30,055 nt of DNA. It comes from a virus. Made by a program: the position numbers and the translations under genes. The notes under the pieces were generated by a model, which was given only the letters and a program-made list of their open reading frames with translations, was not told where the DNA came from and ran no database searches. Location: positions 1 to 30,055 of the IMG/VR virus record IMGVR_UViG_3300009164_000242, one strand, 5' to 3'. Of this stretch, positions 567-10,747 are shown in pieces; within the stretch, counting starts at the first letter, position 1, and each line of letters starts with the position of its first letter.

Positions 567-1042
567 TGTATACACATATACCATCATCTTTACTTGAACC
601 TTATAAAGAAGTTCTTAAATCTTTAACAGAATGGGATTTATCAAAACAACCTGAGCTATGGTCAGAGCAAAGAATAGATGGCGAAATGATGTATAAAATT
701 CATAGGCACTCTGCTAGAATAGTAGAAGAAACAGGACTTTCTGTTCAGCAAATACTATATGACAATCATAATGTACCAGATAAAATTTTTCCATTTTATT
801 ATCAAATAATAAAAATAAATAATAGCTTAAAATCTATTGAATTAGATGAAAATACATTTTGCCAAACCTTTACGTTTTTAAATGGAGAGTTTGAAAATAG
901 TACATTTGTAATAAAAGATAAAGAAGAATATTATAAATTATTTACAGAAGATACATATGCTTTTGCAATTATCTGGAAAACATATGAAAATTCATTGACT
1001 CCCAAATGGTTTATTAGGCCATATTATAGGTTGTTCATGTGA
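566..1042 (+). CDS. Orphan 158-residue protein in the oxygenase operon
   Basis: This is a soluble-looking 158-residue protein rich in aromatic residues. No family was recognised. It has no signal peptide, no membrane segment and no HxD motif, so it is not one of the surrounding dioxygenases. A purine-rich AGAGAG stretch lies about ten bases before the ATG, and the gene abuts the preceding stop (TAATG). It ends in a GTGA overlap with the first full dioxygenase, so translation is probably coupled. Being sandwiched between a DUF6065-like gene and the dioxygenases suggests it belongs to the same functional module, but that is inference only. Confidence 0.75.
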   Translation: MYTHIPSSLLEPYKEVLKSLTEWDLSKQPELWSEQRIDGEMMYKIHRHSARIVEETGLSVQQILYDNHNVPDKIFPFYYQIIKINNSLKSIELDENTFCQTFTFLNGEFENSTFVIKDKEEYYKLFTEDTYAFAIIWKTYENSLTPKWFIRPYYRLFM

Positions 1043-1605
1043 TAAAAAATACACTTGCTCCAGGAATAACTATATATAAAATGGACCCCTCAGATATTTT
1101 AGAAAATTTATATAGACTAAATAATCTAGACTGGGCTTCGGAGTATGTAGTTGATGCAAATGATGGAAACAAAAGCTTGGATGATTCTTATAGAAACACA
1201 AAATCTATAGATATTCCAGTATTATGCAAACAGTCAGATAATGAAGAAATAAAATTTTTTTCAGATTTATTTAATGATAAATTCTCTGTTATAGAAAAAG
1301 ACTATGAAGAAGATTATTATATTAAGTTTAAGGTTCATCAGCCATACAAGATATTAAGATACGAACAAGGTGGAAAATTTGATTTGCATATAGATGATGC
1401 AGGTGCAACATTTAGACGAGCATCTACAGTTTTTTATTTAAATGATAATTACGAGGGTGGAGAAATTGAGTTTCCATCTTTTAATATTAAATATAAACCA
1501 GAAGCGGGGGACCTAATAATGTTTCCATCCTCATATGCATATAGACATAAGGTAAACCCAGTTATCTCTGGAGTAAGATATTCAATTGCAAGTTGGTTAA
1601 GATGA
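1039..1605 (+). CDS. 2OG-Fe(II) dioxygenase, prolyl-4-hydroxylase type (copy 1)
   Basis: This 188-residue protein has the double-stranded beta-helix core of the P4H-like 2-oxoglutarate/Fe(II) oxygenases. The iron ligands are H117-x-D119 and the distal H170, and R180 (in SGVRYSIASW) would bind the 2-oxoglutarate carboxylate. The family-wide signature YLNDNYEGGEIEF, seen in all seven copies here, lies at residues 133-145, and a KPEAGDLIMFPSS strand precedes the distal His. Such enzymes couple oxidative decarboxylation of 2-oxoglutarate to hydroxylation of a protein or small-molecule substrate. The start is GTG and overlaps the preceding stop as GTGA. The C-terminus overlaps the next gene as ATGA. 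The substrate is unknown. Confidence 0.9.
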   Translation: MIKNTLAPGITIYKMDPSDILENLYRLNNLDWASEYVVDANDGNKSLDDSYRNTKSIDIPVLCKQSDNEEIKFFSDLFNDKFSVIEKDYEEDYYIKFKVHQPYKILRYEQGGKFDLHIDDAGATFRRASTVFYLNDNYEGGEIEFPSFNIKYKPEAGDLIMFPSSYAYRHKVNPVISGVRYSIASWLR

Positions 1606-2363
1606 TAATAAATGATTTAAAAGCACCCAAATGCAGAATCATTAAAAACTTTATATCAAAAGAAGAGTGCGAATGGCTAATTAAATATTCAGAAAGTTCT
1701 GGTTTATGGTCAAAGCATAATAGGCAAAGGCAGACATTTAAAACTGAAGAAGACTATAAGTCAGCTGCAGAGCACTGGGACAATAGAAGAATAGAAATTA
1801 ATGAGCTATATCGAGAAGGTATGGAGAACTATAAAGATCTATTTAAGTTTGTAGTGCCTATTCAAGAAAGAATGGAAGATCAGGTAAAAAATTTCTTTAA
1901 TCCAGATTTTGAAATATATAGCGAGCTTTGGGAAATTGTAAAATGGTATTATCCTCATTTACAAGAGCCCCATGTAGACTTTATTGATCCAGACTTTGAT
2001 CTTTCTTCCATAGACATAAACGATGTTCCTGAACAATGTAAATATTTCTTTGATGAAAAGAATATATCTGAATATAAAAGGTTATTCACAAATAAGCTAT
2101 ATACATCTATGCTTTATTTAAATGATGACTTTGAAGGCGGAGAACTTTTTTTCCCTCAGCATAATGAGTTTTCAATTAAGCCAGAAGCTGGCATGCTGCT
2201 TATATTTAGTGGTGACATAAATACCATGCACGGAATTAGACAGATAAAATCTGGAAACCGATATACTCACACAACATTTTGGACAAAAGATCTTTACAAA
2301 TCAAGCCTTGTTGCTATAGATAAAAAACGAGGCAGGTTTATAAAAGATAAACTTATTGACTAA
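1602..2363 (+). CDS. 2OG-Fe(II) dioxygenase, prolyl-4-hydroxylase type (copy 2)
   Basis: A 253-residue protein when read from the ATG at 1602, which overlaps the previous stop as ATGA. A TTG three codons upstream is possible but less likely. Metal ligands are H124-x-D126 and H210, with R220 in SGNRYTHTTFW as the 2-oxoglutarate anchor. The shared signature YLNDDFEGGELFF is at 172-184. Compared with copy 1 it has a longer N-terminal helical part, and about 45 residues between the HxD and the next beta strand, enough to form a substrate lid. The gene is followed by the only sizeable gap in the operon (39 nt), which holds a promoter. Confidence 0.9.
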   Translation: MIINDLKAPKCRIIKNFISKEECEWLIKYSESSGLWSKHNRQRQTFKTEEDYKSAAEHWDNRRIEINELYREGMENYKDLFKFVVPIQERMEDQVKNFFNPDFEIYSELWEIVKWYYPHLQEPHVDFIDPDFDLSSIDINDVPEQCKYFFDEKNISEYKRLFTNKLYTSMLYLNDDFEGGELFFPQHNEFSIKPEAGMLLIFSGDINTMHGIRQIKSGNRYTHTTFWTKDLYKSSLVAIDKKRGRFIKDKLID

Positions 2364-2384
2364 AATGAAAGAATTATATATAAT
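2356..2384 (+). promoter_or_regulatory. Near-consensus sigma70 promoter inside the oxygenase operon
   Basis: TTGACT at 2356-2361 (five of six consensus bases) and a perfect TATAAT at 2379-2384 are separated by 17 bases. The -35 overlaps the stop codon of the preceding gene. Transcription would begin near 2391, right at the AGAGGAG ribosome site (2391-2397) of the gene starting at 2403, giving a leader of only about a dozen bases. It would re-initiate expression of the five downstream dioxygenases and two DUF6065-like genes. Confidence 0.75.
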
Positions 2385-2402
2385 AGAAATAGAGGAGACA
2401 AA

Positions 2403-3101
2403 ATGAATCAGCCAGAAATTTTAGCACCAGGTGTACTTGTTTATAGAAACACATTTACTGAAGATATGAATTTAATTAATAGACTAGAAGAATGTCTATC
2501 ATCAGATCTAAATGCAGAAGGAGTCGGATACTCAGATTCTCCTCACTCTACATACAAATGGAAACAAGCAACCACTGGGTATGCTAACAATGATCTAAAA
2601 TACAGAGATGCCTTTGATTTTAAAATTAAAAAGAATAATCAAAATGATGAAGGCAAAAGCCCAGATCAAATTAAATTAGAAAAGATTTGGGAAGAATCTA
2701 AAAATGCACAACTAGGTCCAGTAGAAGATTATAGACAAAAATTTAATGTTGCCCCACTTAAATACTGGGAATCATTTAATTTTGTAAAGTATGGACCAGG
2801 ACAACATTTTCAGGTTCATTCAGACCATGGATATTCGTATATTTGTGTCCTATCTTCTGTTGGCTACATCAACGATGATTACGAAGGCGGAGAACTATAT
2901 TTTGATAAATTTAATTTAAAGATTAAACCTAAAGCAGGAGATCTTTATCTGTTTCCATCATCTTATTTATTTTCACACGCATCTCTTCCAGTAACAAGCG
3001 GAACTAAATATTCAATTGTTACCATGCTTGATTACTTAGAAGCTCCACATACACCAGACTATAGAGAAATAGAAAAAAGGTATACCGAAGGCTATGCCTA
3101 A
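2403..3101 (+). CDS. 2OG-Fe(II) dioxygenase, prolyl-4-hydroxylase type (copy 3)
   Basis: A 232-residue protein with the HxD motif H139-S-D141, distal H192, and the shared signature YINDDYEGGELYF (155-167). The position that usually carries Arg for the 2-oxoglutarate carboxylate is Lys here (K202 in SGTKYSIVTM). Lys at this position is what animal collagen prolyl-4-hydroxylases use. An acidic/Lys-rich insert around residues 75-105 may form a substrate loop. The ATG has a strong AGAGGAG site six bases upstream and is the first gene after the internal promoter. Its last eight bases overlap the next start. Confidence 0.9.
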   Translation: MNQPEILAPGVLVYRNTFTEDMNLINRLEECLSSDLNAEGVGYSDSPHSTYKWKQATTGYANNDLKYRDAFDFKIKKNNQNDEGKSPDQIKLEKIWEESKNAQLGPVEDYRQKFNVAPLKYWESFNFVKYGPGQHFQVHSDHGYSYICVLSSVGYINDDYEGGELYFDKFNLKIKPKAGDLYLFPSSYLFSHASLPVTSGTKYSIVTMLDYLEAPHTPDYREIEKRYTEGYA

Positions 3102-3792
3102 AATAAATGTATATAAAACGGGACTTAATCCAGCAAAGATAGAACAGATATCCGTTAAAAGAGATTGGATGGATAAAACTGCAGACAGACATGCCTATAA
3201 TTGTTTTCCAGTAAGTCTATCTAATACTTTAGGGTGGGGAATATCTTTTCCAGAAGATATATCTTTTATTTGGGATGGTATTTCAGACAGCTCACCAGAT
3301 CACGTAAAGATACTTTCTGGAGAAAAGTATTGTAATTCAAATAGGTCTAATGGAACAGTTAGCTTTATAACAGGTTTAACATTTAAAACTGATGAAAATA
3401 TAACAACATTAATAATGCCACCTCCTAATTATTTTATTGACGGAGCTCAGTCATTTACAACACTATTATCAACATCATTTTTTTCAGGAGAAATACCTTG
3501 TGTTTGGAGAATTACGTCTCCAGGGAAAGTTATAACCATAAAAGCAGGAACTCCTATTGCTAGTATAATTCCAATATCTTTATCAGAATTAAATGAGTTT
3601 GAAATAGATCTATACGATGGATCGGGATACGTAGGTTCACCATTTGATGGACGAAGATATGGGATGACAGTTGATAAAATTAATGCGGCTGGAAACTGGA
3701 CAGGGTTTTATAGAAACGCTACAGATCATGAAGGAAATAAAATTGGAAAGCACGAAACTAAAACATTAAGGTTGAGAACTAATGACAAATAA
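3094..3792 (+). CDS. DUF6065 family protein
   Basis: This 232-residue protein has the pattern remembered for DUF6065: a CFPVSLSNTLGWGISFP segment near residues 37-53, a DISFIWDG strand, then PPPNYFIDGAQSF and a KAGTPIASIIPIS block near residue 150. No enzyme motif is visible and the function of this family is unknown. The start overlaps the preceding dioxygenase by 8 nt, and the end overlaps the following DUF6065-like gene by 11 nt, so all three are probably co-translated. Family name is from memory, without a profile search. Confidence 0.75.
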   Translation: MPKINVYKTGLNPAKIEQISVKRDWMDKTADRHAYNCFPVSLSNTLGWGISFPEDISFIWDGISDSSPDHVKILSGEKYCNSNRSNGTVSFITGLTFKTDENITTLIMPPPNYFIDGAQSFTTLLSTSFFSGEIPCVWRITSPGKVITIKAGTPIASIIPISLSELNEFEIDLYDGSGYVGSPFDGRRYGMTVDKINAAGNWTGFYRNATDHEGNKIGKHETKTLRLRTNDK

Positions 3793-4510
3793 AATTACAT
3801 TTCATTCTAATAGACTATATAATATTATAAGCGAAGAATATTACCCTAAGCCAACAAAAACCCTAACGCCAGATTGGTTTAAGCAAGCAGACAAATTTGA
3901 ATTAAATAAACAAACTGGAGAGTACTGGCCAAACGCAGAAGGTGGTTTTGTAAGAAGCTTTAAATCTTGCCCAGGACTTCTTGATATTTTTATTACAGGA
4001 TATTTTTATGTAACTCCATGCGATATTGTTTTTAGTAAGCTAGACAATGGAGACATGATAGCAACAACAGAGCCAGGCTATGAAGACTTTGTTGGAGCAA
4101 GGGCCCCTATGAATGAATTTCCAGTTCCACATGGCTACAAAGATCGTCATTTCCACTGGTATCCAAATTGGGCCCCAGAGGTTCCAGATGGCTATAGCGT
4201 TTTATATGTTAATCCAATTAATAGATTTGATTTACCGTTTATAACCACCTCTGCTATAATAGATAATGACAAGATGAATACTCCAGGACTGATACCGTTT
4301 TTTTTGCGAGATGATTTTGAAGGAAAGATTCCAAAGGGGACTCCTTATTTGCAGCTCATTCCGTACAAAAGAGAAGATTGGAAAATGGAGCCAAAATTTC
4401 ATGACATGGCTTCTTTACAAGAAAGACATAATGCACAAGCAAAAAAGTTTAGAACAAAAGACGGCGGGGCTTATAAACAAACCGTTAGATCTCTTAAGAA
4501 ATATGAATAG
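3782..4510 (+). CDS. DUF6065-like protein, full-length paralogue of the gene at the window start
   Basis: A 242-residue protein clearly paralogous to the truncated protein at 1-566: shared CPGLLDIF-type segment, TPCDI, NRFDLPFI, SAIIDNDKMNTPG and GTPYLQLIPYKRE. By secondary-structure pattern it also aligns with the DUF6065-like neighbour at 3094-3792: strand, NPINRF against PPPNYF, TTSAII against FTTLLS, and KGTPYLQLIP against KAGTPIASIIP. Residues 1-60 are an extra N-terminal region containing the Trp-rich TPDWFKQ segment. It has no membrane segment. The function is unknown. Interleaving of this family with hydroxylases suggests a partner or specificity role, which is inference. Confidence 0.8.
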   Translation: MTNKITFHSNRLYNIISEEYYPKPTKTLTPDWFKQADKFELNKQTGEYWPNAEGGFVRSFKSCPGLLDIFITGYFYVTPCDIVFSKLDNGDMIATTEPGYEDFVGARAPMNEFPVPHGYKDRHFHWYPNWAPEVPDGYSVLYVNPINRFDLPFITTSAIIDNDKMNTPGLIPFFLRDDFEGKIPKGTPYLQLIPYKREDWKMEPKFHDMASLQERHNAQAKKFRTKDGGAYKQTVRSLKKYE

Positions 4511-4518
4511 GTAAACAA

Positions 4519-5196
4519 ATGGAATATACTAAAAGAGCACGATATGCAAGAGAAACAATCACCCCATCAGGGTATTTTGGAAACTCTCCCGATAATGTTG
4601 TTGAGCTAGAGGATATGGTTACTGTAGAAGAGCAACAGTATCTTCTTGATTTTGCAAAAAATAATACAGTCTGGGATGTTACAGAATCACAATGGAATGA
4701 AAATGGCAATATAATTTATGACCACAGGGTATGGGAAAATAGAGTTGCAACTCAAAATACTCTTTTAAAAGCAGACCCAACAGGAGAAGTTGTTGCTATT
4801 CTTAATCGTGTAATTGAAAGAATGACCCCCCACATTAGAGAAAAATTTCAGGTTGAGGTAAAGCCAACAGATGCCGCAATTGTTCGCTGGCCAGTAGGAG
4901 CTATGCAATTCCCACATGCCGATAAAGAATTACATGAGGGTCCAGATGCTGGAACACCAAATGAATTTCCTTGGTATGACTTAGGAACCGTATTTTATTT
5001 AAATGACGATTACGAAGGAGGAGAGTTGTTTTTCCCACTTCAAAATATTAAATTTAAACCTAAACCAAGAGCGGCTTATTTCTTCCCTGGAGATAAAAAC
5101 TATATTCACGGGGTTACAAAAGTTACAAATGGGACTAGATATACTGCCCCATTTTTCTGGACAATAACAAAGTTAGGGTTAGAAGATGACAAATAA
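4519..5196 (+). CDS. 2OG-Fe(II) dioxygenase, prolyl-4-hydroxylase type (copy 4)
   Basis: A 225-residue protein with H133-x-D135, distal H197 and R207 (in NGTRYTAPFFW). The signature YLNDDYEGGELFF is at 160-172. About 20 residues lie between the HxD motif and the next core strand, including a GPDAGTP loop. It starts 8 nt after the preceding stop with only a weak AGGT site, so translation may depend on coupling. The end overlaps the next start by 11 nt, in the same sequence context as the overlap at 3782. Confidence 0.9.
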   Translation: MEYTKRARYARETITPSGYFGNSPDNVVELEDMVTVEEQQYLLDFAKNNTVWDVTESQWNENGNIIYDHRVWENRVATQNTLLKADPTGEVVAILNRVIERMTPHIREKFQVEVKPTDAAIVRWPVGAMQFPHADKELHEGPDAGTPNEFPWYDLGTVFYLNDDYEGGELFFPLQNIKFKPKPRAAYFFPGDKNYIHGVTKVTNGTRYTAPFFWTITKLGLEDDK

Positions 5197-5974
5197 GTAT
5201 GAGTATACATCATTTGAATTACTTCCAAATGTAAGAATTTATCAGGGCTTATTGCCAGACGCAGACAATCTTTATGACATCATGAAGCGTTCAGAGAAAA
5301 CATCTGAAGGTAAATATTATTTAAGGACTTGGGATCAATGGTCCATCTTTGGAACATATTCTCAACAAAAACATGATGATAATGAGCCCAGAGAATTTGG
5401 ACCGATGTATGATGAAGAAAAGCATTTATCTGATAGAGTTTATGAGGCATATAATACTGCAATTGAAGATTATGTAAATACTTACAATGTAGTGATGCCT
5501 CCAACATCCAAGCTTATGACATCTTCATTTTCTAAATACAATACAAATATTGATACAATGAAAAATGAAATGACAATGCAGTATCACACAGATTATATTA
5601 TTTCTGAAAGAGATATGCCAGGTCCAAAATTCCTTTTAACATGCACAACCTATATAAATGATGATTACGAAGGTGGAGATATTGAGTTTGTTATAGACGA
5701 TCAATATTACCCATATAAACCTAAAGCGGGAGACATCCTTGTATTCCCATCTACAGAGCCATATTTTCATGGAGTCAGAGTTATTAAAAATGGAGAAAAG
5801 TTTTTTATTAGAAACTTTATTCAACACTACTTTGATGGAACAAAAGAGTGGCTTGATAACCAGAGACATTTCGGCGCATATAGATGGTCAAAAATGGAAT
5901 GGGATAGAATTGAAAAAGAAAATCCAAAAAATATGAGATACTCAAAGAGAAAGCATTTAGGGTATGAATCATGA
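5186..5974 (+). CDS. 2OG-Fe(II) dioxygenase, prolyl-4-hydroxylase type (copy 5)
   Basis: A 262-residue protein, the longest of the seven copies. Ligands are H134-T-D136 and H195. The shared signature reads YINDDYEGGDIEF (156-168). The carboxylate-anchoring position appears to be K205 in NGEKFFIRNF. It has an extended C-terminal tail of about 50 residues after the core, rich in Trp, Arg and Lys (residues about 218-262), which could bind a partner or substrate. ATGA overlap joins it to the next gene. Confidence 0.88.
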   Translation: MTNKYEYTSFELLPNVRIYQGLLPDADNLYDIMKRSEKTSEGKYYLRTWDQWSIFGTYSQQKHDDNEPREFGPMYDEEKHLSDRVYEAYNTAIEDYVNTYNVVMPPTSKLMTSSFSKYNTNIDTMKNEMTMQYHTDYIISERDMPGPKFLLTCTTYINDDYEGGDIEFVIDDQYYPYKPKAGDILVFPSTEPYFHGVRVIKNGEKFFIRNFIQHYFDGTKEWLDNQRHFGAYRWSKMEWDRIEKENPKNMRYSKRKHLGYES

Positions 5975-6669
5975 GCAATCCAAAAATTAGAGATGAATTT
6001 TTTTTAGTAGAAAATTTTATTGATGCAGAAACTTGTCAAGCTGTAATTAAATACTTTGACTATTTAGTTGATAATAAAGTTTTAAAATGGAATGAAATTT
6101 CTTTTTATGGTTCACAGGCTATGGGATATTGGCCATCTGATGACAGGCTTAAATTGTTTGGCTTATCACCAAATTTTTTTGGAGAACTAAAAGAAAAAAT
6201 AAAAACAAAAACAGAAGAACTTTTGGGATTTGAAGTTAATGAAGTTAGTTATCATGCACAAAGATGGATTGAAGGTGCATTTGCGGACTATCACTCAGAC
6301 AATTCAGATCATGATGGAAATCCAACTGCTTTTGAAAAAAGTAAATACGCCGTATTTATTTATTTAAATGATGATTTTGAAGGCGGGCACTTAAAGTTTA
6401 AAGATGGCAGTATTGATGTTAAACCCGAGATAGGTCTAGCTGCATTCTTTGCGGGAGGCCACACTAGAGAGCATATGGTAACTACAGTAAAAGGTGGAAT
6501 AAGATATACCATAGGTTCATTTTGGGATGACGCTAGTTGTGTTTATACAGATGAGCAAAAAAAAGCTTGGGAAGATGAGCTTAAGCAAGTTAGAGCAGAA
6601 CAAGAAGAGCTTTATAAAAAATGGGCAACTCCAGAAGGTAAGCCAGTAATGCCAAAGGGTAGAGAATGA
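5971..6669 (+). CDS. 2OG-Fe(II) dioxygenase, prolyl-4-hydroxylase type (copy 6)
   Basis: A 232-residue protein with H108-S-D110, distal H168 and R178 (GGIRYTIGSFW). The signature YLNDDFEGGHLKF is at 131-143. Another His (H164) sits four residues before the assigned distal ligand and could be the true ligand. The C-terminal 40 residues are a charged, probably helical tail (KKAWEDELKQVRAEQEEL). ATGA overlaps join it to both neighbours, so it is in the middle of a translationally coupled string. Confidence 0.88.
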   Translation: MSNPKIRDEFFLVENFIDAETCQAVIKYFDYLVDNKVLKWNEISFYGSQAMGYWPSDDRLKLFGLSPNFFGELKEKIKTKTEELLGFEVNEVSYHAQRWIEGAFADYHSDNSDHDGNPTAFEKSKYAVFIYLNDDFEGGHLKFKDGSIDVKPEIGLAAFFAGGHTREHMVTTVKGGIRYTIGSFWDDASCVYTDEQKKAWEDELKQVRAEQEELYKKWATPEGKPVMPKGRE

Positions 6670-7280
6670 TAATAAAAGAAAAGTTAGCAGAAAACTTATA
6701 TTATTATAAAAAAGTTATTAAAGATCCAACTGCTTTAATTGCAAAAATAGAATTACTAGATGGAAAGATTGCAAACAATTCTAGTTTAAGTAATTGGTCT
6801 CCATGGGTTTCAAGTACCAGAGAAGATGACGTCTTTGGTGAGTTCAAAGCTGGTGGTTACAGAATTGGATATGATTTATCAGAAGACAAAGAATCATTTT
6901 TAATTATTGCAGAAATTCATGATGCAATTTTACAATGTATTGAAGATTATTCTTTTACAACTCAAAAAGATCTAGGATATCTCCCAGACGAGATTACAAT
7001 CAGAAAGTATCACGCTGGCGGAAAGATGGGACCACATATTGATTGTGAAGAAGATGACGATGAAGCTAGATTAACTGCTTCTCTTGTTCTATACCTTAAT
7101 GACGATTTTGAGGGTGGAGATGTAATATTTAGAGAACAAGGTATTACAATGAAACCAGAACCAGGAAGTCTTTTGATTTTTCCATCAGTAAAACCATATT
7201 ACCATGAGTCTACTGAGATAATTTCTGGATTTAAGTATATGTGCCCAGCATTTATGTTCAAAAGAAGTAAATTAAATTAA
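6666..7280 (+). CDS. 2OG-Fe(II) dioxygenase, prolyl-4-hydroxylase type (copy 7)
   Basis: A 204-residue compact protein with H124-I-D126, distal H180 and K190 (SGFKYMCPAF) at the carboxylate-anchor position. The signature YLNDDFEGGDVIF is at 143-155. An acidic run (EEDDDE) follows the HxD motif directly. It is the last gene of the oxygenase string and ends 19 nt before the collagen-like fibre gene, which makes that fibre the nearest candidate substrate. Confidence 0.9.
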   Translation: MIIKEKLAENLYYYKKVIKDPTALIAKIELLDGKIANNSSLSNWSPWVSSTREDDVFGEFKAGGYRIGYDLSEDKESFLIIAEIHDAILQCIEDYSFTTQKDLGYLPDEITIRKYHAGGKMGPHIDCEEDDDEARLTASLVLYLNDDFEGGDVIFREQGITMKPEPGSLLIFPSVKPYYHESTEIISGFKYMCPAFMFKRSKLN

Positions 7281-7299: not shown

Positions 7300-8541
7300 A
7301 TGGCTACAACAGGAATTAATGGATGGCGTTTCCCAAGTTACTCTGACTCACCAGATGTACCTAGAGACCTAGGTTTATTGGCAGCAGACATATCTGCTTG
7401 GGTGTCTACAAACCCAGATCTAAAAGGCGCAACAGGCGCAACAGGACCAAGAGGTTACAGCATACTTAATGGGTTAACTAGCCCAGCATCTAATGTGGGT
7501 GTTGACGGAGATTTCTATATCAACACAATAAGCAATTCAATATTTGGACCAAAAACTGCAGGAGCTTGGGGAAATGGAACAAGCTTAGGTGGCAATAGTG
7601 TTTTGAATGGAACCGTAGATCCAGTTTCTGCAAATGGATCTAATGGAGATTTTTATATAAATACAACATCCAAAACTATATTTGGACCAAAAACAAACGG
7701 TTCCTGGCCTTCAGGAACTTCCATAGTTGGACCACAAGGAACACAGGGATCAACTGGAACAACTGGAGCAAAGGGAGATGCAGCAGCAACCATATTAGTT
7801 AATTCTACAACAACTAGCGCTCCAGGTACAAATGCAATAGTTACAAACTCAGGAACATCTTCAGATGTTAAATTAGATTTTACTATTCCAAGAGGAGCAG
7901 ATGGAGCACCAGGCGCACCAGGTGCAGCAGGCGCAAAAGGAGATGCAGGTGCACCAGGAGCAACACCAAGCCTGGACCCTATTTCAACAAGAATATCTCT
8001 TACAATGCCAAACACTTCTACAACTGGAGTTAACTCGAACTGGTATCCCCTTTCAACAGGTCTTTATGATTTAGGAAAAGATGCAACAAGTGGATCTGCA
8101 AGATATTGGAAAAATATTTATTCAAATGGAACTGTCTATGCGGCATCAGTTGTTGCTTCAGGAAATATGTTTATTCAAACATCAACAATTGTTTCATCTG
8201 ATAGAACTTTAAAAAATACAATTGAAGAGTCTAATCTAGGACTTAATTTTATTAATTCATTAAAGCCAGTTAGCTATAAATATAATGTAGGCGGAATAAA
8301 CTATACTGCTGATGATGATGGCAATCAGGTTGAAACAATAGTTCCAGGAACAAGAACTCATTACGGACTAATTGCACAAGAAGTAAAAGAAGCTTTAGAA
8401 GAAGCGGGAGTACAAGACTTTGGCGGATGGGTTGAAAAAGAAGATTCCACACAAGCCCTTAGATATGAAGAGTTTATTTCTCCATTAATTAAAGCCGTAC
8501 AAGAACTTTCAGCGAGAGTAAAAGCACTAGAAGAGGCGTAA
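7300..8541 (+). CDS. Collagen-like tail fibre with C-terminal S74 intramolecular chaperone
   Basis: This 413-residue protein begins with a short N-terminal domain (1-40), probably for virion attachment. Collagen-type Gly-x-y patches follow at about 42-51, 145-160 and 199-222. Two near-identical modules lie between them (54-97 and 100-143, GDFYIN..S..IFGPKT). Residues 245-290 contain the LYDLGK...RYWKNIYSNGTVYA pattern common just before fibre chaperones. Residues 298-413 match the peptidase S74/endosialidase-type chaperone: SSDRTLK (S300-D301, the expected self-cleavage dyad), SLKPVSYKY, HYGLIAQEVKEAL and a C-terminal helix. The family trimerises fibres and cleaves itself off. The protein is likely a receptor-binding or side fibre. 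Its Gly-Ala-Pro and Gly-Ala-Lys triplets are potential hydroxylation sites. Confidence 0.88.
   Translation: MATTGINGWRFPSYSDSPDVPRDLGLLAADISAWVSTNPDLKGATGATGPRGYSILNGLTSPASNVGVDGDFYINTISNSIFGPKTAGAWGNGTSLGGNSVLNGTVDPVSANGSNGDFYINTTSKTIFGPKTNGSWPSGTSIVGPQGTQGSTGTTGAKGDAAATILVNSTTTSAPGTNAIVTNSGTSSDVKLDFTIPRGADGAPGAPGAAGAKGDAGAPGATPSLDPISTRISLTMPNTSTTGVNSNWYPLSTGLYDLGKDATSGSARYWKNIYSNGTVYAASVVASGNMFIQTSTIVSSDRTLKNTIEESNLGLNFINSLKPVSYKYNVGGINYTADDDGNQVETIVPGTRTHYGLIAQEVKEALEEAGVQDFGGWVEKEDSTQALRYEEFISPLIKAVQELSARVKALEEA
7459..7728 (+). repeat. Two tandem 44-residue modules in the fibre gene
   Basis: Residues 54-97 and 100-143 of the fibre repeat the same unit: S-[IV]-LNG...P.S..G..GDFYIN..S..IFGPKT.G.W..GTS. 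Copies start at about 7459 and 7597, two residues apart in the protein. This GDFYIN...GPKT unit is commonly seen in phage tail fibres. The tandem copies suggest internal duplication, which could change fibre length. Confidence 0.8.
7894..7965 (+). repeat. Collagen-like Gly-x-y tract of the fibre
   Basis: Eight consecutive triplets: GAD, GAP, GAP, GAA, GAK, GDA, GAP, GAT. The y position carries three prolines and one lysine, the positions hydroxylated in collagens. Further short tracts at about 7423-7452 and 7732-7779 add GAT, GPR, GTQ and GAK triplets. Confidence 0.85.
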
Positions 8542-8544
8542 GAC

Positions 8545-10347
8545 ATGTCCTATAAGTATACAGTCTTACAAGATAAGCCAAGCTCTTTTTATTTATTAGA
8601 TGAAGTAAGATCTGGAACAGTTGGCTCTTATGACAGCATGAGATCAACTTTTTTAACATATGCTGATCTTCGAGACCGTGGAGTTTCATATTCCGCTTTA
8701 AGCGGATTACCAGTATACGACTATTCAGGTAATGCCTATGACGGATATGCTATAAATGCATCTTCAAGCGAACTAATGCCTTTAATCGCAGGCGGAGTCA
8801 GAGGAACAAAAGTCTTATCAGATACAAGAATAAACTTCAACGTACCTGGAATTGCTAACTCATATTATTCAGACAATTCATTTTGCATAGAAGCCTGGGT
8901 GCTATTGCCAGACTATAGTTCTGATGAAGTATGCATTGTTGGAGATTCAGGAAACGCAATAGGATTATTTTATAAAAACGGAAACCTTATATTTAAAGCT
9001 GGACCTAATTTAGTTCAATATAAAGTTAGCAATACAGAATCAATATATGTAGTAGGGCAATTTTCTACAAATCAAATTTCATTATATATAAATGGTTTCA
9101 TTGTTAATTCAAAAAGTTTAGACAAATATAAATTTAATAACACGTCTGTTAATTTTCAATCTGGACCATCGGCAAATAGTTTTATTATAGACTCTGTAGG
9201 TTTTTATAAATTTAACTTATCTGATTCTCAAATAATTAAACATTATAAAAATGGAATAAAAGAAATTAATTATTCTCAAATTGTTAATAATGATGGCGGA
9301 TATCTATTTAGCATGAATACAGCAATGATGAAGCCATCTATGAGCTACTCATATCCTAGATCAAAGTCCTGGAAAAATTTTATAAATGAAAATATTAAGT
9401 TATCTGTAGATGAAGCCTATCTTTATTTTGATAGTTCTTTGAGTGGAAGTTTTACATTTACAGATTCAATTATTATTCCAGAAACTTTAGGAATAACTAG
9501 TTCTCAAATTTATTGGGATTCAGATACAGATGGCATATCAATAAGAGCTAGCATTGACGGCACCAACTGGGTAAGCTGTATTAATGGTTCACCCATTCCA
9601 TTCTTTAATAAAAATGATAATCAAATAGGGTCTATTTTATATCTACAGGTAACAATGTCATCATCAGATACCTCTAAGTATTTGCCTATTCTTAAATCTA
9701 TTACAATAGATTTTTTTAAGAATAAAAATTTTTATTGTGACAACTTTGGGTATTATATATCTTCAAATTATGATTACTCTTTGCCAAGATCAAATAGCAC
9801 AATATTATCTTATAATAAAAACAATGGATTAAAGATGTATAGTGGGCATGGGTTTACAATTAATTCAGATTTGTCTACCAGAACAATAGAACTTATATTT
9901 ACTCCAGACGGATCACAAAATGTATTATTTTCAGCACCATCCAAAATATATGAATGGGATAATTTGGGAGCCATCACTAAAACTGGAGTATCCTCAATAT
10001 ACGTAAATGGCATAAATAGAACATCTGCAACTAATATATCAGAATTCTTTTCAAACAGTCTACCCCACTATGTTGTTATAGTTTTATCTACTGCAGCATC
10101 AACAAGCCTCAAGTTTAATCAAAATCAAACCGACAGCAAGTCTGGTGGTAAAAATATGTATAACAATTTAAGCATATATCCAACAGCCTTTACAGAGTAT
10201 GACGTGGCCAGACATTATCAGCTATACACAGACAACATAGTAAATTCAATATCAGACAGCCTTGTTTCTGTATCTGAGTCAACCTCTGGTACAGATTCTA
10301 CCGCCTACCTATTACTTTCTGTAGAGCCACAAGCAATATCTATATAA
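8545..10347 (+). CDS. Phage adhesion protein with two LamG/ConA-like domains
   Basis: This 600-residue protein has a first jelly-roll domain at about residues 108-235. It shows the LamG_3 pattern: SFCIEAWVLLP, a GLFYKNGNLIF strand, ISLYINGFIV, and the closing IDSVGFYKFNLSDSQIIKHY. A second, more divergent domain lies at about 440-570 (RTIELIFTPDG ... SIYVNGINR ... HYVVIVLS ... NLSIYPTAFTEYDVARHYQLY). The region between is beta-rich. Such domains bind glycans or other surface ligands, so this is probably a receptor-binding or decoration protein. An AGAGG site precedes the ATG, three bases after the fibre stop. It has no visible S74 chaperone of its own. Confidence 0.78.
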   Translation: MSYKYTVLQDKPSSFYLLDEVRSGTVGSYDSMRSTFLTYADLRDRGVSYSALSGLPVYDYSGNAYDGYAINASSSELMPLIAGGVRGTKVLSDTRINFNVPGIANSYYSDNSFCIEAWVLLPDYSSDEVCIVGDSGNAIGLFYKNGNLIFKAGPNLVQYKVSNTESIYVVGQFSTNQISLYINGFIVNSKSLDKYKFNNTSVNFQSGPSANSFIIDSVGFYKFNLSDSQIIKHYKNGIKEINYSQIVNNDGGYLFSMNTAMMKPSMSYSYPRSKSWKNFINENIKLSVDEAYLYFDSSLSGSFTFTDSIIIPETLGITSSQIYWDSDTDGISIRASIDGTNWVSCINGSPIPFFNKNDNQIGSILYLQVTMSSSDTSKYLPILKSITIDFFKNKNFYCDNFGYYISSNYDYSLPRSNSTILSYNKNNGLKMYSGHGFTINSDLSTRTIELIFTPDGSQNVLFSAPSKIYEWDNLGAITKTGVSSIYVNGINRTSATNISEFFSNSLPHYVVIVLSTAASTSLKFNQNQTDSKSGGKNMYNNLSIYPTAFTEYDVARHYQLYTDNIVNSISDSLVSVSESTSGTDSTAYLLLSVEPQAISI

Positions 10348-10370
10348 TTTTGTCATAGTGTTGACAAAAT
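10347..10370. promoter_or_regulatory. Perfect 9-bp palindrome (ATTTTGTCA / TGACAAAAT), operator or weak terminator
   Basis: The arms 10347-10355 and 10362-10370 are exactly complementary around a 6-base centre. It begins in the stop codon of the LamG gene and ends one base before the -35 of the next promoter. There is no U-tract and the stem is AT-rich, so a regulator-binding operator fits at least as well as a terminator. Confidence 0.5.
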
Positions 10371-10371
10371 C

Positions 10372-10400
10372 TGGACTTTAGTTAGCAGTAATGGTATCAT
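10372..10400 (+). promoter_or_regulatory. Putative promoter for the portal operon
   Basis: TGGACT (10372-10377), 17 bases, then TATCAT (10395-10400) with a TGG extension. Transcription would start around 10407-10409, matching the ATG at 10409 and giving an essentially leaderless mRNA. The consensus TTGACA at 10361-10366 has no acceptable -10 at standard spacing and is read here as part of the palindrome. Confidence 0.45.
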
Positions 10401-10408
10401 TAAGTACT

Positions 10409-10747
10409 ATGGATATTTTAAATAAGAATACTAGAATCATTGAAGAGACCACGCTTGGCATTTATGTGTGGGAGATGCCTGACGGTAGATGGATTGGAGA
10501 TGACGATGGTAATTTTCTTTCGGTCACGGCAAAAAAAGGCAATAGATCCAAGATCGATGCTTTGGCTAGAGAAGTTCGCTCATATGGTATATATGAGGGT
10601 AATCCCAAGTTCCTTTCAGGACGCAGAAAAATTGATGATGAAGAATTTGAACACCAAAACGAAAGATTAAAATGGGGCTTAACACCAGACCCACTAGATA
10701 TTGGTGTTTATAAAGATTCAATGCTTAGAAATGGAGCAGTTCAATGA
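10409..10747 (+). CDS. Small orphan protein preceding the portal
   Basis: A 112-residue protein read from the ATG at 10409. An in-frame ATG at 10391 would add six residues, but it lies across the proposed -10 extension and neither start has a ribosome site. The first half contains a compact beta-type segment (TLGIYVWEMPDGRWIGDDDGNF). The second half is charged and probably helical (SKIDALAREVRSYGI, KIDDEEFEHQNERLKWG). No family was recognised. It ends in an ATGA overlap with the portal gene, so it is expressed with head genes. A packaging or portal-assembly accessory role is possible but unproven. Confidence 0.7.
   Translation: MDILNKNTRIIEETTLGIYVWEMPDGRWIGDDDGNFLSVTAKKGNRSKIDALAREVRSYGIYEGNPKFLSGRRKIDDEEFEHQNERLKWGLTPDPLDIGVYKDSMLRNGAVQ

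Follow-up and report, generated by a model that had tools for sequence, protein, structure and literature searches.

Seven prolyl 4-hydroxylase-like oxygenase genes in the fibre region of a phage fragment, with a proline-repeat fibre tail as candidate substrate

Background

A viral enzyme of the prolyl 4-hydroxylase (P4H) type is known from the chlorella virus PBCV-1, whose collagen prolyl hydroxylase vCPH (5c5t) is the best structural match to one of the enzymes described here, and which reportedly, from work by Eriksson and colleagues in 1999, also hydroxylates virus-coded non-collagen peptides with proline-rich repeats. Here we describe an array of seven genes for P4H-like Fe(II)/2-oxoglutarate (2OG) oxygenases, OG1 to OG7, in the virus record IMGVR_UViG_3300009164_000242; the window that was analysed is the entire IMG/VR record of 30,055 bases. 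In relatives of this phage, intact P4H-like enzymes that are kept as separate orthologues constantly adjoin proline-repeat fibre tails, and we lean towards the view that the array is an in-phage prolyl-hydroxylation line for such tails.

The PBCV-1 enzyme differs from the array in being a single enzyme of a eukaryotic giant virus, with 17% identity, and to our knowledge PBCV-1 lacks an array, DUF6065-like genes and an FFxPPG tail. The soluble P4H of Bacillus anthracis (3itq, 5hv0, 5v7y) shares both fold and family with the array enzymes, but it is encoded by a cellular gene and its target, going by the title of 5v7y, is elongation factor Tu.

Among phages, T4-like cyanophages carry between one and five 2OG genes (PMC3037559) and S-SCSM1 carries 24 (PMC9602691), so that the first-pass annotation of this DNA understated the case when it spoke of single P4H-like genes in phages. 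The cyanophage sets resemble the array in that each phage has many divergent paralogues of PF13640 and related families (PMC9602691; PMC3037559), but they span four Pfam subfamilies and have been interpreted as host-metabolism genes; phage 2OG oxygenases are common, but their use has been called cryptic (PMC9301287) and their function uninvestigated (PMC9602691). Many 2OG genes in one phage are therefore already known, and it is the arrangement with a proline-repeat partner that appears to be new: no description of an array together with such a partner and DUF6065 was found in the literature searched. The test of gene partners over a large viral collection set out below yields one defined substrate candidate, the proline-repeat fibre tail, and argues against the collagen-like neighbour of the array.

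The oxygenase array

All seven open reading frames (ORFs) match 2OG-FeII_Oxy_3 (PF13640), with E-values from 1.5e-18 to 3.8e-07 and scores of 31.4-68 bits against a curated cut-off of 27, and a second search again gave seven places. The genes are as follows, the active-site residues being read from an alignment of the seven copies.

1039 to 1605, + strand: OG1, P4H-like 2OG-Fe(II) oxygenase, 188 residues, GTG start (PF13640 E 1.5e-18); active site H117/D119/H170/R180
1593 to 2363, + strand: OG2, P4H-like 2OG-Fe(II) oxygenase, 256 residues (E 2.4e-08); active site H127/D129/H213/R223
2403 to 3101, + strand: OG3, P4H-like 2OG-Fe(II) oxygenase, 232 residues (E 4.8e-13); active site H139/D141/H192/K202
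4519 to 5196, + strand: OG4, P4H-like 2OG-Fe(II) oxygenase, 225 residues, with structure model (E 3.8e-07); active site H133/D135/H197/R207
5186 to 5974, + strand: OG5, P4H-like 2OG-Fe(II) oxygenase, 262 residues, core copy (E 5.1e-09); active site H134/D136/H195/K205
5971 to 6669, + strand: OG6, P4H-like 2OG-Fe(II) oxygenase, 232 residues, core copy (E 1.8e-09); active site H108/D110/H168/R178
6666 to 7280, + strand: OG7, P4H-like 2OG-Fe(II) oxygenase, 204 residues, core position (E 1.2e-10); active site H124/D126/H180/K190

The HxD motif, YxNDxxEGG, the distal His and an Arg or Lys at H+10 are found in every copy, which bears out the first-pass reading of seven intact HxD...H triads with the YxNDxxEGG signature. 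The strong divergence of loops and C-terminal tails that it described is equally apparent; the other copies have 24-34% identity to OG1, the loop between HxD and YxND runs from 13 to 45 residues (longest in OG2) and the tails from 8 to nearly 60. Neighbouring ORFs mostly overlap by 4-13 bases, in keeping with the translational coupling that had been suggested, but OG2 and OG3 are separated by a 39-base gap and the seven genes are not contiguous, two DUF6065-like ORFs lying between OG3 and OG4. The description of one operon of seven genes had missed the three interspersed DUF6065-like genes and also that the array runs off the contig, the left end of which falls inside the first of these genes (3-566).

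Structure prediction, proposed as a check at the time of the first pass, was run for OG4 and gave an AlphaFold model with a predicted local distance difference test score (pLDDT) of 91 and a P4H-type double-stranded beta-helix fold. In a Foldseek search its best match in the PDB is vCPH, with further matches to the P4H of B. anthracis and to human P3H1 and PHD2, and the top PDB matches of the array profile are likewise prolyl hydroxylases. It is from this predicted fold and from the gene partner described below, and from these only, that we infer that the enzymes would hydroxylate peptide proline.

A proline-repeat fibre gene beside the array in relatives

Among relatives of the array the closest is that of G021, with eight 2OG genes. 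The gene order in G021 begins with a glycosyltransferase, tail-fibre genes (one with an Mtd_N domain) and a protein combining fn3, a proline repeat and a Hint-like domain, continues with a 2OG gene, a DUF6065-like gene, an orphan ORF, three 2OG genes, two DUF6065-like genes and four 2OG genes, and ends with a collagen-like fibre, a Laminin-G fibre and the portal. Upstream of the array, relatives have a gene for an fn3 protein whose C-terminal tail is of the (FF[SA]PPG)n type, with units that read for example FFSPPGFFAPPG in G021, with 13 PP, and FFPPFFPFFPP or PPFFPPHF in others; a search of sequenced phages with the G021 protein gave no match. Gly is the commonest residue to follow PP (803 of about 1650 units), and X-Pro-Gly is the context in which collagen P4Hs act.

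The association was examined from both sides. Of 24 arrays whose contigs extend 1 kb or more upstream, some of them from near-duplicate genomes, 23 are preceded by a proline-repeat ORF at a distance of up to about 1.3 kb. In the remaining one, G023, the repeat of the fn3 protein is FTPFG, with a single proline in each unit, and only two P4H-like genes were detected in the array. From the other side, 120 viral stretches were picked solely for DNA encoding FF[SA]PPxFF[SA]PP, and those motif ORFs that are followed by 3 kb of sequence or more (n=69) were counted. A same-strand 2OG gene lies within 3 kb downstream of 66 of the 69, and in 65 cases the first 5 kb hold two or more; by inspection the three negatives look like a second, further-upstream proline-repeat gene. 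With a collagen-like motif the same procedure gave a 2OG gene over this 3-kb distance for 1 of 51 (Fisher p = 6e-29 for the difference, uncorrected for kinship). When the pre-repeat parts were clustered at 70% identity, 24 of 26 clusters had a 2OG gene.

Two fibre genes stand directly 3' of the array in the window:

7300 to 8541, + strand: collagen-like GXY fibre with a C-terminal Peptidase_S74 chaperone (PF13884 E 6e-14; PF01391 E 1.6e-05, just under cut-off)
8545 to 10347, + strand: Laminin-G-like fibre protein of 600 residues (PF13385 E 2.6e-10), found between array and portal in relatives

The collagen-like gene is absent from 14 of 44 arrays, and nine of these collagen-less arrays with upstream sequence retain a proline-repeat gene. 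These absences and the reverse test with the collagen-like motif rule the gene out as a constant partner of the array.

The pairing is also found outside the window's phage family. On contigs of 70-205 kb a PASTA-like domain, so labelled for its resemblance to the weak PASTA match of the second proline-repeat gene, is fused to the same FFxPPG tail and adjoins 2OG and DUF6065-like genes, and no capsid of the window's family was detectable on these contigs. Since they form a separate lineage, the pairing occurs in at least two phage lineages, with different N-terminal domains. Small PASTA-like proteins with an FFxPPG tail were seen at L137, L141, L143, L146, L162, L164 and L168, some with a Cys-rich end.

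With the left end of the contig falling within the first DUF6065-like gene, the proline-repeat gene of the window phage would lie just off it, and synteny with G021 and with a second relative, G001, suggests that this phage does carry one.

Some genomes have a second proline-repeat gene in the fibre region, several kb further upstream, with a tail of the same type (L090:429-2819, L359:4474-6897, L354:4252-4839, L108:2-2359 and L135:7945-10629). In L090 both proline-repeat proteins end in FGSRFIRSY. The tail has the look of a module that fibre genes share. A Hint/intein-like domain directly follows the tail in many, not all, relatives (L092:12938-14254, L097:11948-13273, L101:4105-5409, L135:369-1652 and 7945-10629). 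It was judged by eye from a C...GD...HN pattern and stays under curated cut-offs (Intein_splicing E 1.7e-4, Hint E 1.6e-3, Hint_2 E 3.7e-3); a PDB search gave a weak match to the bacterial intein-like (BIL) domain 2lwy (E 0.38), and some copies are without the starting Cys or the final HN. In the variant array of G023 (L362, G023:68000-85870) the fibre genes are interspersed with a short-chain-dehydrogenase-like ORF and with further ORFs that may be oxygenase-like.

A PF11397 GlcNAc-transferase upstream of the array in G021 had hinted at hydroxyproline glycosylation, this being, we take it, the family of the Skp1 hydroxyproline GlcNAc-transferase. Such genes occur in only 3 of 24 records (L092:18648-19829; G007:50738-51322, beside a scattered 2OG gene; G024:107053-107649), and glycosylation was dropped from the core model.

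Evolution of the array

A tree of 106 2OG copies from relatives, built quickly and with some weak forks, groups each of the four 3'-most genes, OG4 to OG7, with orthologues of matching array position in divergent genomes. OG4 is a core copy, to which each array of the tree contributes one orthologue, orthologues of OG3 are found in several genomes, and those of OG1 and OG2 in G021 and G001 only. Against true orthologues in G021, G001 and G003 the ratio of nonsynonymous to synonymous substitution (dN/dS) is 0.02-0.30, values that are indicative only because dS is saturated; wider comparisons of OG1, OG2 and OG3 fell on paralogues and are not part of this range. These ratios indicate purifying selection on every copy and, with the orthologous positions kept across divergent relatives, agree with the earlier view that the array does not represent decay of duplicates. 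OG3 is the slowest evolving (89-94% identity to its orthologues in G021, G001 and G003, dN/dS 0.02), whilst OG7 evolves faster (58-75% identity).

Compared with G021, G001 has a closer fibre to that of the window but a more distant array, and since the two similarities disagree the array and the downstream fibres recombine separately; co-evolution of array and fibre alleles is unsupported on the same grounds. Relative records hold 3-12 PF13640 genes, part of them outside the array. More P4H-like genes occur outside the fibre block in G003, G007, G014, G018, G021 and G024, for example six in L089, and these scattered genes sometimes adjoin a DUF6065-like gene.

DUF6065-like genes and an orphan ORF

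Four further ORFs belong to the array:

3 to 566, + strand: DUF6065-like 'a' (PHROG 7084 type), truncated at its 5' end by the contig boundary, the G021 orthologue having 243 residues (phrog_7084 E 1.1e-28)
566 to 1042, + strand: orphan ORF of 158 residues before OG1, kept in G021 (75%) and G001 (51%)
3094 to 3792, + strand: DUF6065 'b' (PF19541, E 2.5e-30), without the type-c IIDxD motif by alignment columns
3782 to 4510, + strand: DUF6065-like 'c' (PHROG 7084 type, phrog_7084 E 1.3e-27), keeping IIDxD (D161, D163) and GTPxxQ

The orphan ORF has no Pfam match over cut-off and no PHROG match, and its dN/dS against G021 is 0.09. For DUF6065, on which no paper was found in the literature searched, a fold can now be predicted. 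The model of type c has a pLDDT of 91, and the Foldseek matches shown are almost all dUTPases or dCTP deaminase, albeit with modest TM-scores of 0.24-0.35 by query length, so that a fold like that of the trimeric dUTPase/dCTP-deaminase superfamily is predicted; profile searches gave weak dUTPase matches (E 0.8-2.3). Residues D161, D163, G186, T187, P188 and Q191 are invariant in type c, whose IIDxD and GTPxxQ presumably sit where dUTPases have motif III and GDRIAQ, the remaining dUTPase motifs being unrecognisable. Type b differs from dUTPases in having lost the Asp residues of IIDxD.

Homologues of type c at L109, L110 and L111 occur in haloarchaeal Hafunaviridae, near tail and ribonucleotide reductase genes, and in cyanophage S-RIM4, after ribonucleotide reductase genes. 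The presence of DUF6065 in cellular genomes was considered and rejected, as the sole genome-contig match, L112, is phage-like itself, a fragment that carries the same array.

Proposed function and alternatives

We suggest that each ORF encodes a P4H-type Fe(II)/2-oxoglutarate oxygenase which would couple the cleavage of O2 and 2-oxoglutarate to the hydroxylation of peptide proline. As the likely substrate we see the fn3-domain fibre protein whose gene precedes the array in relatives, or more exactly its C-terminal tail of the (FF[S/A]PPG)n type; in some genomes the matching tail of a second fibre-region gene would be another. The paralogues might be specialised for the first or the second proline of PP, for different repeat variants or for one or other of the two fibre proteins, and the dUTPase-fold DUF6065-like proteins are probable partners. 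More speculatively, hydroxylation may make the aromatic, proline-rich tail stiffer or more soluble and thereby aid adsorption to an actinobacterial host. The first-pass idea of a dedicated modification system with several substrates or successive sites is thus plausible, its candidate substrate being the proline-repeat tail found in relatives. If this is right, phages hydroxylate their own fibres post-translationally, which bears on the adsorption of phages of uncultured actinobacteria.

An extension of this proposal, possible but distinctly tentative, is that the tail forms a hydroxyproline-rich adhesive fibre tip. About five to nine prolyl hydroxylases, each devoted to one proline position, one repeat variant or one oxidation step, would act on FFxPPG tails that are shared by different fibre proteins and often carry a Hint-like maturation domain, the dUTPase-fold proteins serving as non-nucleotide partners. 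Were it true, such a tip would give bacterial viruses an equivalent of hydroxyproline-rich structural proteins.

Several observations weigh against proline-repeat tails as the substrate. The proline-repeat gene is absent from the window contig itself, and seven enzymes exceed the obvious need of two prolines per repeat. Most cases of the pairing come from one diverse phage family, 13 of the 15 motif loci with enough sequence belonging to that of the window (portal identity 55-95%), and part of the association is therefore shared descent; at 50% identity the pre-repeat parts form only 5 clusters, 3 of them with a 2OG gene, so that independent events are few. The same genomes have 2OG genes elsewhere without a proline-repeat neighbour, and in the few marine phage regions checked, those of OG4 relatives, 2OG genes had no adjoining proline-repeat gene, from which it follows that not every phage P4H has a proline-repeat substrate. 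The strict catalytic pattern is found in 73 of 80 array copies in relatives, not in all.

The neighbour at 7300-8541 would be an obvious substrate if the enzymes worked as collagen prolyl and lysyl hydroxylases do; it directly adjoins the array, its Pfam Collagen match is just under cut-off, its GXY runs hold some Pro and Lys at Y (for example GAPGAPGAAGAKGDAGAPGAT) and the fold of the array enzymes is nearest to collagen P4Hs. Nonetheless we regard this as improbable, given the arrays that retain their enzymes without the gene, the single positive in the reverse test, the many GXY tracts with Thr rather than Pro at Y (GATGATGATG) and the separate recombination of fibre and array. Somewhat less improbable, although still unlikely, is that host proteins such as translation factors or surface proteins are hydroxylated during infection and that the place among fibre genes is incidental. 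P4H-like enzymes with non-collagen targets exist, 5v7y being, by its title, a P4H with elongation factor Tu as interaction partner and modification target, and further 2OG genes are scattered away from fibres, yet the link to proline-repeat fibres is tight in two lineages and the gene order among virion genes is conserved.

Action on nucleotides or DNA, jointly with the DUF6065 proteins, would suit the dUTPase/dCTP-deaminase-like fold of type c and its place near ribonucleotide reductase genes in haloviruses and cyanophage S-RIM4; PHROG 2297/274 are labelled DNA endonucleases, and there is a weak PDB match to a Naegleria Tet-like dioxygenase (E 0.003). Against this, peptidyl-prolyl hydroxylases make up the overwhelming majority of the profile and fold matches, type b is without IIDxD, and no base-modification gene was noticed around the array, where no systematic search was made; there is little chance that this is the role of the array. 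Least credible is a metabolic function, a drain on 2-oxoglutarate or a supply of succinate as proposed for the 2OG enzymes of cyanophages (PMC3037559), for bulk 2OG turnover would leave unexplained both the position-specific paralogues, each under purifying selection, and the constant pairing with a proline-repeat gene.

The phage and its hosts

The record is probably a fragment of a larger genome. Downstream of the array the order is collagen-like/S74 fibre, Laminin-G fibre, a small ORF, portal, prohead protease and major capsid, with an ORF of 2,584 residues in the tape-measure position further downstream of the major capsid. A DNA-level search of the window against sequenced phages gave no match, whilst at protein level the closest sequenced relatives are Streptomyces phages; in the one such relative examined, Wakanda (Stanwilliamsviridae), the prohead protease has 46% identity and the first 32 kb contain no 2OG gene and no DUF6065 gene. 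Relatives of the capsid gene are present on hundreds of viral contigs. WhiB, which has been used as a rule for host assignment (PMC6802176), is present in all five long relatives (97-120 kb), and the hosts are therefore probably actinobacteria.

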